Program-made: the position numbers and the translations under genes
In this document: in pieces, positions 19,249-23,209 of the stretch
Layout: the number at the start of each line of letters is the position of its first letter
Position numbering within the stretch: position 1 is the first letter of the stretch
The notes under the pieces: model-generated
The model's database searches: none
Seen by the model: the letters and a program-made list of their open reading frames with translations, nothing else
What the model was told of the DNA's origin: nothing
Assembly: GCF_029537235.1 (NCBI RefSeq)
Contig: NZ_CP120638.1
Location: 2,435,501-2,499,500, forward strand
Source: Rhizobium sp. 32-5/1
GTDB lineage: Bacteria > Pseudomonadota > Alphaproteobacteria > Rhizobiales > Rhizobiaceae
DNA length: 64,000 bases
Direction: 5' to 3'

Positions 19249-19272
19249 CGCAGTCTTCACCATGCTTTCAAA

Positions 19273-19294
19273 GGGCGCTTTCGAGCGCCCTTTT
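19273..19294 (+). terminator. Rho-independent terminator after phaB
   Basis: Perfect stem GGGCGCT / AGCGCCC closed by a TTCG tetraloop and followed by TTTT, 24 bases after the phaB stop. Confidence 0.9.
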
Positions 19295-19396
19295 CATTTT
19301 CTGCAGTGCGCAAAGGTTAACGGCGCACCGGAAAGCTACGGCATCACGCCAGTTTATCCACTGTTTCCTATGGTTAACCAATTGTAATTCCACATC

Positions 19397-19456
19397 ATAT
19401 AGCGATGAACAAACCGTGAAAACCCTTATGTCGGTGATTCATCGCCGATTCGTTCC
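19397..19456 (+). repeat. 60-base imperfect direct repeat, copy 1
   Basis: Begins ATATAGCGATGAACAAACC and ends GATTCATCGCCGATTCG plus TTCC. It aligns without gaps to 19871-19930 at 47 of 60 positions; the first 20 and the last 21 bases are best conserved. Both copies carry two GATTC sites 11 bases apart. Confidence 0.8.
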
Positions 19457-19637
19457 TGCTTTGGCTGAGAGGTTAACGGCAACTTGTTTCGGCCCATCTG
19501 CTGCGCGATCGGAGTGTTTTGTGAAACACCACTGCGGCGATGGGAATCCGGCAAAATTCTGCTCCCGTGCGTTGCTCGAAAAGACGTAGCTCCCACTACA
19601 TCTTGTGTTGGAGCGAGCGAAAGGTCCATGAGGCTCG

Positions 19638-19655
19638 CGATTCGCCGCTGAATCA
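19638..19655 (-). repeat. Inverted third copy of the paired-GANTC core
   Basis: Read on the minus strand this is TGATTCAGCGGCGAATCG, matching the core TGATTC-N6-GAWTCG of the two direct repeat copies. It keeps the 11-base spacing between GANTC sites but lacks the upstream AACAAACC block. Confidence 0.6.
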
Positions 19656-19870
19656 TCCCGAGAAGGCACGAAGTGTTAATTTCGTTCGGAATCGATCCTG
19701 CTGGCGCGTCGTCGAGGGTTGAATTTTCCTAAATTTTCCAGAGTCTTGGATTCCGAATCCCGCAGTCGAAGCTGACGCTTTGGTGAGATCTGCCGGTCCA
19801 ATCGGCGGGAGTCACCAACGACAAAAACTCCGATTCAGCATGTGGTGCGAATCCGACTTTCGATATCAAT

Positions 19871-19930
19871 ATATAGCGGTGAACAAACCCTGAATCCGGT
19901 GGAGTCAATGATTCGTCGCTGATTCGTTCC
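19871..19930 (+). repeat. 60-base imperfect direct repeat, copy 2
   Basis: Begins ATATAGCGGTGAACAAACC and ends GATTCGTCGCTGATTCG plus TTCC, 474 bases downstream of copy 1 and 78 percent identical to it. It lies about 170 bases before the helicase start, so it could be part of that gene's control region. Confidence 0.8.
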
Positions 19931-20101
19931 GTGACTGTTCCGAATCTCTCTTAAGTGCCCTCCGTGGGCGTTGAGAAAGGGTGCCGCCGACCCACTATGT
20001 TGTGGTCCAGCCCTTGCCTTTGCGCGCTTGCATGGTCATGTGTGCTGCTTCTGTTGCACCGGGCTCGCGCGTGGGTGGCAATGGGGCCAGACAATGCCGG
20101 G

Positions 20102-23100
20102 ATGAGAGACGTGCGTGACAAATCGATGATCCTGAGCGGCCGCGGCGTGACCGCGGTGCTCGGACCGACCAATACCGGCAAGACGCATTACGCGATCGAG
20201 CGCATGGTGGCGCACGAGAGTGGCGTCATCGGCCTGCCGCTGCGCCTGCTGGCGCGCGAGGTCTATACACGTGTCGTCGAGAAGGTCGGTGTGCACAATG
20301 TTGCGCTGATCACCGGCGAGGAAAAGATCACCCCGCATATGGCGCGCTTCTCGGTCTGCACGGTCGAGGCCATGCCGCGCGATACTATGGCCTCCTTCGT
20401 CGCGATCGACGAGGTGCAACTGGCCGGCGATCTCGAGCGCGGCCATATCTTCACCGACCGTATCATGCATTTGCGCGGACGCAGCGAGACCTTGCTGCTT
20501 GGCGCATCCACCATGCGGCCAATCCTGGAGCAGTTGCTCCCCGGCATCACCGTCGTCGAGCGGCCGCGGCTATCACAATTGCTCTATGCCGGCTCGAAGA
20601 AGATCACACGCCTGCCGCAGCGCACCGCCATCGTCGCCTTTTCTGCCGAAGAGGTCTACGCGATCGCCGAGCTTATTCGCCGCCAGCGGGGCGGTGCCGC
20701 CGTCGTTCTGGGCGCGCTCTCGCCGCGCACCCGAAACGCGCAGGTGGCGCTCTATCAGGAAGGCGACGTCGAATATCTGGTTGCCACCGATGCGATCGGC
20801 ATGGGGCTCAATCTCGATGTCGATCATGTCGCCTTCGCGCAGGACCGCAAGTTCGACGGTTACCAGTTTCGCGATCTCAATCCCGGCGAAATGGCACAGA
20901 TTGCCGGCCGCGCGGGGCGCCATGTGCGCGACGGCACGTTCGGTGTCACCTCGCGGGTCGAGCCGTTCGACAAGGAACTGGTGCACCGGATCGAATCACA
21001 TCAGTTCGATCCCGTTCGCGTGCTGCAGTGGCGCTCCAAGGCGGTGGACTTCGCCTCTATCGCGGCACTGAAAAAGAGTCTTGAAGTGGCGCCCACCGTG
21101 CATGGCCTGACGCGGGCGCTGCCGGCCATCGACCAGCAGGCGCTGGAGTATCTGTCGCGTTATCCGGAGGTGGCTAGCGTCGCCACCACGCCCGAGCGTG
21201 TCGAAAAACTCTGGGATGCCTGCGCTTTGCCGGATTATCGCCGCATTACCCCTGCCCAACATGCCGATCTGATCTCCACCATCTATGCCGATCTCGTGCG
21301 TCGTGGCACAGTGAACGAGACTTTCATGGCGGAGCAGGTTCATCGGGCCGATCGGACCGATGGTGAAATAGACACGTTGTCTGCACGTATTGCGCAGATT
21401 AGAACGTGGACGTATGTGTCGAACCGTCCTGGATGGCTTGCCGATCCGACACACTGGCAAGAAAAGACGCGGGAAATCGAAGATCGATTGTCCGATGCCT
21501 TACATGAAAGGTTGACGAAACGGTTCGTTGACCGCAGGACATCTGTGCTTATGAAGCGCCTGAGAGAGAATGCGATGCTGGAAGCTGAAATCAGTGTGAA
21601 TGGGGATGTCTTCGTCGAGGGACATCATGTGGGGCAGTTGGCCGGTTTTCGGTTCAGCCTGGCCGCAGGGACGGAAGGCTCCGATGCGCGTGCAGCGCTC
21701 GGCGCGGCGCAGAAGGCGCTTGCGCTTGAGTTCGAGGCGCGTGCAGCGCGGCTGCATGCCGCCGGCAACAGTGATCTCGCGCTCGCCTCCGATGGCTATG
21801 TGCGTTGGCTGGGCGAGCCGGTGGCGCGTCTTGCGGCAAGCGACCATGTCATGCGTCCGCGTGTTATCCTGCTCGCTGACGACCAGCTCCAGGCCAATGC
21901 TCGCGATCACGTCGTTGCCCGCATCGAGCGCTTCGTCAATCATCACATCTCCACGGTGCTGAAGCCGCTCGACGATCTGTCGCGGGCCGAGGATCTGGAG
22001 GGTCTTGCCAAGGGTCTGGCTTTCCAGCTCGTCGAAAACCTCGGCGTGCTCTTCCGTCGCGATGTCGCCGACGACGTCAAGTCGCTGGACCAGGAGGCGC
22101 GTGCCTCGATCCGCCGCCACGGCATCCGCTTCGGCGCCTATCACATCTTCATGCCGGCGCTCCTGAAGCCCGCGCCTGCCGAACTGATCACGCTGCTCTG
22201 GGCGCTGAAGAACGACGGCCTCGACAAGCCGGGCTATGGCGATCTGATCCCGGTGCTTGCTGCCGGCCGCACCTCCGTCGTCACGGATCCGACCTTCGAG
22301 CGTACATTCTACAAGCTCGCCGGCTTCCGCTTCCTCGGAAAGCGTGCCGTGCGCATCGACATTCTCGAGCGCCTTGCCGATCTCATCCGTCCGCTGCTGC
22401 AGTGGAAGCCGGGCTCGGCCACGCGTCCTGACGGCGCCTATGATGGTCGTCGCTTCACTGCGACCACGGCCATGCTGTCCATTCTCGGCGCGACGCCTGA
22501 TGACATGGAAGAAATTCTGAAAGGCCTCGGCTACCGCGCAGACAGCGTCAAGGCCGAAGAAGCAACCGCATTCCTGGCCGCGCAGGCCGGTTCGGCCGCC
22601 GCGCCTGCCGAGGCTGCTCCCGTCGAAGCCGATGCGGACAAGGCCGACCACGACGATGCTGATGCATCTGCCGAAGAGCCGGTCAGCGAGCCAGTTGCCG
22701 AAGTAACCGCCGCTCCAGATGCGCCCGCCGAGACGGAAACGACCGAGGTGGCTGCGGAGACGGCGGCGCCGGCAGAAGCCAGCGAACCTGTCGAGCCAAA
22801 GCCTGTACTCCTCTGGCGTCCAGGTAGCCGCAATGACAACCAGCGCACCGGTGGCCGTCCACAGGGTGATCGTCGGGGTTCCGGCAATCGTGCGCCGCAG
22901 GGTGAAGCACGTCGTGAAGGCGGTGAGCCGCGCCGCGAAGGCGAAGGTCGCCGGGAAGGCCGTGACGACAACCGCAAGAGCGGCGGCGGCCGGCCGGATC
23001 ATCGCGCAAAAAGCCGTGACGGAAAGCCGCAGGGCGGCCAGCGTCCTGACAAGGGCGAACGGCAGGATCGTCCCGACCGCAACGACCGCGGCCCGAAGCC

Positions 23101-23209
23101 GCAGCAGGCCGCCAAGTTCGAGGCGCGTCCACCGCGCAAGGAAAAGCCGCTCGATCCGGATAGTCCTTTCGCCAAGCTCGCTGCCCTGAAGGAGCAGATG
23201 AAGAAGTAA
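20102..23209 (+). CDS. mgpS: SUV3/MgpS-type DExH helicase
   Basis: Large cytoplasmic superfamily-2 helicase, 1035 aa from ATG 20102 (MRDVRDKSMILSGRG); the frame is open back to 19955, but that extension is unlike the family. Walker A is in LGPTNTGKTHYAIERM, the DExH-like box in FVAIDEVQLAGD, and motif VI in MAQIAGRAGRHVRDG, all within about residues 10-310. The organisation matches mitochondrial SUV3 RNA helicases and rhizobial MgpS. From about residue 860 the tail is first Ala/Glu/Pro-rich and acidic, then Arg/Gly/Asp-rich with repeated RREGE- and GDRRG-like units, which suggests RNA binding. It is followed after 4 bases by an S4 RNA-binding protein, consistent with a shared RNA role. Confidence 0.85.
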   Translation: MRDVRDKSMILSGRGVTAVLGPTNTGKTHYAIERMVAHESGVIGLPLRLLAREVYTRVVEKVGVHNVALITGEEKITPHMARFSVCTVEAMPRDTMASFVAIDEVQLAGDLERGHIFTDRIMHLRGRSETLLLGASTMRPILEQLLPGITVVERPRLSQLLYAGSKKITRLPQRTAIVAFSAEEVYAIAELIRRQRGGAAVVLGALSPRTRNAQVALYQEGDVEYLVATDAIGMGLNLDVDHVAFAQDRKFDGYQFRDLNPGEMAQIAGRAGRHVRDGTFGVTSRVEPFDKELVHRIESHQFDPVRVLQWRSKAVDFASIAALKKSLEVAPTVHGLTRALPAIDQQALEYLSRYPEVASVATTPERVEKLWDACALPDYRRITPAQHADLISTIYADLVRRGTVNETFMAEQVHRADRTDGEIDTLSARIAQIRTWTYVSNRPGWLADPTHWQEKTREIEDRLSDALHERLTKRFVDRRTSVLMKRLRENAMLEAEISVNGDVFVEGHHVGQLAGFRFSLAAGTEGSDARAALGAAQKALALEFEARAARLHAAGNSDLALASDGYVRWLGEPVARLAASDHVMRPRVILLADDQLQANARDHVVARIERFVNHHISTVLKPLDDLSRAEDLEGLAKGLAFQLVENLGVLFRRDVADDVKSLDQEARASIRRHGIRFGAYHIFMPALLKPAPAELITLLWALKNDGLDKPGYGDLIPVLAAGRTSVVTDPTFERTFYKLAGFRFLGKRAVRIDILERLADLIRPLLQWKPGSATRPDGAYDGRRFTATTAMLSILGATPDDMEEILKGLGYRADSVKAEEATAFLAAQAGSAAAPAEAAPVEADADKADHDDADASAEEPVSEPVAEVTAAPDAPAETETTEVAAETAAPAEASEPVEPKPVLLWRPGSRNDNQRTGGRPQGDRRGSGNRAPQGEARREGGEPRREGEGRREGRDDNRKSGGGRPDHRAKSRDGKPQGGQRPDKGERQDRPDRNDRGPKPQQAAKFEARPPRKEKPLDPDSPFAKLAALKEQMKK

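Follow-up and report, generated by a model that had tools for sequence, protein, structure and literature searches.

A directional, often tandem, GANTC-rich DNA module is linked to the Suv3-like helicase gene in Hyphomicrobiales and beyond

The dense cluster of GANTC sites on the Rhizobium sp. 32-5/1 chromosome belongs to a DNA module of about 105 bp that is present in two clear tandem copies upstream of a gene encoding a Suv3-like helicase. An earlier note on the window (the whole 64,000-nucleotide stretch that was analyzed) had described a cluster of methylation sites; the finding is larger than that, namely, a module of several elements, often arrayed in tandem, that keeps a fixed direction toward the Suv3 helicase gene and is linked to it. 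Its GANTC density, its make-up, its tandem copies, its linkage and orientation to the gene, and its conservation were all observed in the genomes compared. Our preferred explanation, in which we place somewhat better than even confidence, is that the modules form a composite cis-regulatory array of the helicase gene, with putative NrdR- and LexA-type operators tuned by methylation. The single step that the module is a control region of the downstream helicase gene is, taken alone, quite likely to be correct.

GANTC is the target of CcrM, the cell-cycle methyltransferase of alphaproteobacteria. Recounting gave the same 17 sites in 511 bp as had been reported, with starts running from 19436 to 19942, and the three pairs said to be exactly 11 bp apart were found at 19436/19447, 19639/19650, and 19910/19921. 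The 64-kb window contains 81 GANTC sites in total, versus a mean of 349 in dinucleotide shuffles; with GANTC depleted about fourfold in the window, the contrast presented by the cluster is larger than had been assumed. Whether the region is an outlier in its genome had been proposed as a check. A sample of 40 segments, each 20 kb long and together covering 14% of the genome (800 kb out of 5.62 Mb), was scanned in 511-bp windows at 10-bp steps and gave a background of 1.39 GANTC per kb, or 0.71 per 511 bp, and a maximum of 6 per window, versus 17 in the cluster. At the rate derived from this sample, the Poisson chance of 17 sites in 511 bp is approximately 4e-18, and relative to the 800-kb sample the cluster is a genuine outlier. 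The pattern GANTC-N6-GANTC occurs at 23 places genome-wide, 3 of them in the cluster, and the reversed-pattern control gave 17. The source genome is recorded as 87% complete.

The region is bounded by a hairpin on the phbB side and by the helicase start, which was taken at 20105. The terminator-like hairpin 3' of phbB (19270 to 19293, plus strand) is a consensus match only, of a kind found once where 1.1 were expected. The linked gene (20105 to 23209, plus strand) has domain matches to PF22527 (DEXQc_Suv3, 3.5e-26) and PF00271 (Helicase_C, 1.6e-9), which bear out its previous description as a SUV3-like helicase; Suv3-type helicases are relatives of the mitochondrial enzyme.

The two copies, modules A and B, are paralogous, with 78% identity over 60 nucleotides. 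Module A, the upstream copy (19388 to 19463, plus strand), comprises a CACATCATATAG box, GAAC-N7-GAA, and GATTCATCGCCGATTCGTTC, and scored 46.2 bits with covariance model R2 (E of 1.1e-13 within the window and 9.6e-12 genome-wide), a model for which our own locus was among the rows used in building. Module B, the gene-proximal copy (19831 to 19947, start approximate, plus strand; R2 61.4 bits, E of 2.1e-18, with the model match spanning 19844 to 19941), is the deeply conserved one and is found across the order and beyond. Its first NrdR-type half or box is CAGCATGTGG (19836 to 19845), 31 bp before the second; the A, T, and G columns of this first box were invariant in the 38 to 40 local alignments extending there, local alignment being a procedure that favors matching ends. 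The second NrdR-type palindrome, CAATATATAG (CnAnATnTnG; 19867 to 19876), has all six core letters in 33 of 63 modules and five of six in a further 12, versus 1.4% of shuffles with five or more. Next come GAAC-N7-GAATC (19881 to 19896, plus strand; GAACN7GAA in 48/63 modules) and GATTCG (19910 to 19915, plus strand), the most conserved element, which is present in 64 of the 65 best modules from outside the genus, the 65th being a partial alignment, and in 26/26 rows from outside the order. The last of these elements is GTTC-CGTGACT-GTTC (19926 to 19940, plus strand), a LexA-like direct repeat whose form GTTCN7GTTC is shared by 53/63 modules. From the 63-module alignment and the class rows, the consensus order is CnAnATnTnG (which in many loci follows another such palindrome at a distance of 31 bp), GAACRAA, GAA 11 bp later, GATTCG, and TTYGTTC, the last usually with GTTC 11 bp further on.

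The second 11-bp GANTC pair, 19639/19650, falls in a possible decayed middle module (19591 to 19651, plus strand) that carries a CACTACATCTTGTG box and was not significant with R2 (4.0 bits, E of 1.6). Between the modules and outside them lies GATTCcGAATC (19749 to 19759), two GANTC sites 6 bp apart, which is a second conserved element: both sites are unchanged in 19/19 same-genus relatives, and the flanks differ by 30 to 37%. A genome-wide search of our own genome with R2 returned the two copies at this locus and one weak match inside a coding frame (E of 0.015), with no further clear copy.

Conservation of the cluster in related genomes, whose absence the earlier note had named as a refutation, was borne out in Hyphomicrobiales. 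A DNA search of 61 genomes, our own included, recovered the region in 28, in many as two separate blocks, and a helicase orthologue is present in 192 of 199 genomes of the order. GANTC spacings such as 10/8/11/21-22 recur in helicase upstream regions across different families. An initial profile, for which 20 loci of the same genus were the sole source, detected the module in 79/89 helicase upstream regions, and two further rounds on these 89 regions, three in all, raised this to 85/89. Copies per region numbered one (24 regions), two (46 regions), three (14 regions), or four (1 region). Neighboring copies are spaced 202 to 298 bp apart in 59/77 cases. At E ≤ 0.01, no matches were obtained in reversed sequence or in helicase coding sequence, and the reverse complement gave two weak matches, as is expected because the module is partly palindromic. 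The four loci lacking the module (L063, L075, L094, and L100) have 2, 3, 0, and 1 GANTC in 1,000 bp, respectively.

A named set of 80 loci from GTDB genomes, of which 79 were usable (L211 was dropped because its upstream sequence was too short), had the module upstream of the helicase at 62 loci, a count that is not independent of the 89-locus result since the two sets overlap in part. Carriers include Sinorhizobium meliloti 4H41, Rhizobium johnstonii 3841, Agrobacterium vitis, Mesorhizobium, Bradyrhizobium, Rhodopseudomonas, and Stappia, with a weak match of 9.9 bits in Xanthobacter (L206). The module was not found at the other 17 of the 79 named loci, which include Aureimonas, Fulvimarina, Jiella, Pseudovibrio, Ancylobacter, and Methylobacterium, and it is missing from 4/4 Aureimonas and 4/4 Methylobacterium/Methylorubrum loci of this set. 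Upstream regions of 700 bp in the named set average 8.9 GANTC with the module versus 0.8 (range, 0 to 2) without it; across loci, the GANTC cluster and the module are gained or lost together.

The same arrangement extends beyond the order. R1, a sequence-only covariance model from 63 sequences, matched 35 of 289 class genomes at E ≤ 0.01, 32 of them outside Hyphomicrobiales and the rest being our own and two order-mates, in a sample that includes at least 4 genomes of the order. The lack of an R1 match in the other 254/289 genomes is weak evidence of absence because the filters were strict and only about 13 to 14 candidates were scored per genome. R2 matched 31/289 genomes at E ≤ 0.001, with no gain in genomes over R1 in an equal-sized sample. 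Of 30 loci retrieved, 27 have the Suv3 helicase (24/27 outside the order), and in 27/27 of the loci with the helicase the module is oriented toward it. Our own locus (L112) was left out of the class rows. Letter agreement among the rows from outside the order is partly by construction, because the search model weights those letters; the helicase linkage and direction found there are independent of this weighting. Upstream neighbors differ, with a flavin monooxygenase-like gene at L110, a radical-SAM-like gene at L113, and an acyl-CoA-dehydrogenase-like gene at L132 (three loci, genes named by eye). Because upstream neighbors vary at the examined loci outside the order while the helicase stays, phbB and PHB metabolism were rejected as the linked function.

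The module occurs without the helicase at L118, L119, and, weakly, L139. At L119 (G288), it lies at 1501 to 1596 and, judged by eye, adjoins an acyl-CoA-dehydrogenase-like frame as in L132; a different protein, and no helicase, is encoded within 1.5 kb downstream. By eye, the module at L118 (G434) is followed by frames of MerR/mercury-type appearance rather than by the helicase.

The constancy of direction bears on the possibility, raised in part by the earlier note, that the modules are a replication-linked site with a trans-acting function near the origin, such as titration in the manner of datA, sequestration, or loading, and are merely anchored by the helicase gene. Tandem arrays of up to four modules and a variable distance to the gene would suit such a site. 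So would position: with hemE, which we take to be the neighbor of oriC in relatives, as the origin mark, the module lies approximately 190 kb away in our own genome, and the helicase lies less than 300 kb away in 11/27 genomes, including our own. These distances were calculated manually, in a few cases from rounded genome sizes, and were measured for the helicase, with the module confirmed in some of the genomes. In addition, TTATCCAC at 19353 to 19360, directly upstream of module A, is DnaA-box-like, and TTATCCACA or TGTGGATAA, with similar letters, occurs upstream of the modules in L042, L044, and L045. However, in G071 and G086 the helicase and hemE are over 2 Mb apart, so that origin proximity is a tendency and not a rule; the module is missing in some lineages; and its orientation toward one gene, constant at every locus that has that gene, also speaks against such a site. 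We regard this explanation as quite improbable.

A noncoding RNA locus had also been suggested, and this idea was not borne out. A structured 5' leader or small RNA could be accommodated by a region that precedes the gene and runs parallel to it, and GAACRAA can be drawn as pairing with TTYGTTC over 7 bp. RNAalifold returned one seven-pair stem, for which the covariation term was -0.03; the most variable pair has more A-C mismatches (15) than A-U pairs (10), and no Rfam family reached its gathering score within the window. RNA structure was rejected on the covariation term and the missing Rfam match, leaving an RNA reading very improbable indeed.

Considered as DNA, the module resembles known operators at two points. 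The CnAnATnTnG palindromes follow the NrdR letter consensus reportedly described by Rodionov and Gelfand in 2005. Pairs of NrdR-type boxes in the 89 regions fall 20 times at 31 bp and 5 times at 32 bp, whereas in the reversed control no spacing has more than 2 pairs, and the 31-bp pairs come from both the 20 same-genus regions (8 pairs) and the 69 others (12 pairs). Our own ribonucleotide reductase gene (domain PF02867) has an upstream pair at 31 bp plus a single box matching 12/12 letters, its start codon being provisional; the gene is split into two overlapping frames, L107 to L109 (G000:C1:136862-139010), probably by an assembly error. The pairs of reductase promoters thus have the same core and 31-bp spacing as the module. 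They differ in being flanked by ACAC/GTGT, whereas the module boxes are flanked by CCAC/GTGG and sit in a larger, often tandem element before a helicase gene. The known target of NrdR is ribonucleotide reductase, and the gene linked to the module is Suv3, with the reductase gene elsewhere in the genome. Published NrdR sites, in the passages available, are two boxes approximately 31 to 32 bp apart (PMC2892513). The first box is not recognizable in every module. The published passages on NrdR targets name no helicase, which counts against an NrdR reading. NrdR-type proteins are candidate ligands of the module, with arguments about evenly balanced.

The second resemblance is to LexA boxes, for which the available part of a Caulobacter study gives the consensus GTTCN7GTTC (PMC12700426). 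Our own lexA gene has GAACN7GAAC directly upstream, and in its promoter region (L263) GAACACATGTGGAAC precedes ATATAGTGTTCGTTC and TTTGTTTC, a combination resembling the letters of the module. The alphaproteobacterial form GTTC-N7-GTTC is common to most modules, as noted above; the module repeats, however, have G+C-rich spacers (mean of 60%) that often bear GANTC (28/53), frequently occur in several copies per gene, and are decayed in the smallest genomes, with the second GTTC degraded in all three genomes of about 1.4 Mb that have the module. In Caulobacter, only one LexA box is present at approximately 97% of SOS promoters, and the spacer in the example shown is AT-rich, according to the same partial source (PMC12700426). 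Given those promoters, the G+C-rich spacers and multiple copies weigh to some extent against LexA, and LexA-type binding at the modules, also a candidate, could as readily prove wrong as right. Alternatively, an uncharacterized two-component regulator of the OmpR/PhoB type, or some other regulator, may act on 11-bp TTCG repeats, the NrdR and LexA likeness being coincidental. OmpR/PhoB-type regulators use 11-bp direct repeats, and TTC/GAA units do recur at 11-bp steps in both arms of the module. We consider this reading doubtful, as the palindromes paired at 31 bp are an independent match to NrdR.

The role of methylation is a separate question. GANTC reaches 37.0 per kb in modules versus 1.0 per kb in helicase coding sequence and is the only one of eight isomeric palindromes to be strongly enriched there, the other seven ranging from 0.3 to 5.2 per kb. 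Linkers between modules are also raised, at 4.2 per kb, above the distant upstream flank (1.77), the downstream flank (1.34), and helicase coding sequence (1.0), with little change in the other seven palindromes. This linker excess is partly a general intergenic excess, which is about twofold in Ensifer as stated in the portion of the source available (PMC8725594); undetected partial modules may add to it. A CcrM-type enzyme with the RAMA domain is encoded in 79 and NrdR in 80 of the 80 genomes examined (out of 98), our own included. G434, the sole genome without a detected CcrM, keeps the module, though not beside the helicase. Because both proteins are near-universal in the 80 genomes, including the four from the 89-region set that have no module, their presence is uninformative as a natural experiment.

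Substitution patterns offer hints of selection for GANTC at few sites. Among 19 same-genus relatives and all 17 sites, changes at G, A, N, T, and C numbered 36, 80, 77, 63, and 59 in 311 comparisons, so that the N position is no more variable than A. At the retained sites 19650 and 19942, N changed in 10/10 and 9/15 cases. That N is overall no freer than A suggests selection for GANTC as such at only a few positions. The central site at 19910 is no longer GANTC in 7/19 same-genus relatives, in every case by a change at A; in L029, for example, the equivalent is GTTTCG, and the other four letters of GATTC are kept in all seven, which makes these relatives a natural experiment on the importance of that adenine. 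Outside the order, T stands at N in 26/26 module rows, and the central GATTC is the sole GANTC in 14 of them. In Hyphomicrobiales, three further positions often resemble GAATC (the GAA unit), GAGTC (the stretch that follows it), and GACTC (the last repeat's spacer); they are GANTC in 36, 36, and 32 of the 65 best modules from outside the genus versus 4, 5, and 0 of the 26 rows outside the order. Extra CcrM sites were therefore either added in Hyphomicrobiales or lost elsewhere. The 11-bp spacing, which the earlier note had asked to see conserved, was so in part: GATTCG-N5-GATTC recurs in several families and orders (13/65 best modules and 11/57 A1 rows from outside the genus and 6/26 rows from outside the order), but it is patchy. 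The pair is deeper-rooted than one genus and is not a fixed feature.

The proposal of a CcrM-timed control region consequently stands in part: the cluster is an outlier, is conserved, resembles a control region, and occurs where CcrM is encoded, but it is only partly supported because the position-by-position test does not single out the GANTC unit. In its strict form, a CcrM/GcrA promoter cluster in which GANTC methylation and GcrA binding would time helicase transcription in the cell cycle, we find it unlikely. It would account for the singular GANTC enrichment in modules and linkers, for GANTC within so many LexA-like spacers, for the changes of N at 19650 and 19942, and for the near-universal CcrM. 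Against it are the overall behavior of N, the relatives in which the central site no longer has its A, the fixed T at N and the frequently single GANTC in rows outside the order, and the partly general nature of the linker excess. CcrM/GcrA-controlled promoters likewise have dense GANTC upstream of a gene and CcrM in the cell; here, many sites sit in a multi-element module whose only regular GANTC outside the order is the central GATTCG. The repABC loci of secondary replicons also are GANTC-dense regulatory DNA according to the available text (PMC11514494), and unlike them this cluster is chromosomal and helicase linked. A functional role of methylation at the modules falls a little short of an even call.

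The explanation that we prefer, a composite array controlling the helicase gene, combines these elements. We infer from sequence both which proteins would bind and any effect that methylation would have. The module of about 105 bp would serve as a DNA platform bearing NrdR-type palindromes, LexA-like GAAC/GTTC repeats with an 11-bp period, and a central GATTCG. Since further positions are often GANTC in Hyphomicrobiales, several methylatable adenines would lie within and between the operators. NrdR-type repressors, responding to dNTP state, and LexA-type repressors, responding to DNA damage, would occupy the modules; the hemimethylated or fully methylated state set by fork passage and CcrM would tune their occupancy; and helicase output would then track the replication and damage state of the cell. 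The proximal module lies roughly 100 to 500 bp from the gene, and this variable distance is loose for a promoter-overlapping operator and counts against our best explanation.

In our judgment, apart from RNA leaders, it is unusual for a long noncoding element of several parts to stay with one gene across more than one order of bacteria. Among the open full-text papers searched, titles and the beginnings of abstracts contained no description of the element or of its regulation. Mitochondrial SUV3 is mentioned alongside PNPase and R-loops in the parts of the literature available, and control of its bacterial counterpart by replication and damage would be sensible on that basis, this still being a deduction.

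In sum, a puzzling methylation cluster is explained as a portion of an older and larger element, one that connects a helicase from the same family as mitochondrial Suv3 with apparent regulators of replication, damage, and methylation. The modules offer a concrete and removable target for studying the function of dense GANTC arrays. A bolder conjecture, to which we give a low probability, is that one ancient element wires the bacterial counterpart of mitochondrial Suv3 to dNTP state through NrdR, to damage through LexA, and to the time elapsed since fork passage through CcrM methylation. If this were true, methylatable adenines inside the operators would match the supply of helicase to conflict between replication and transcription.
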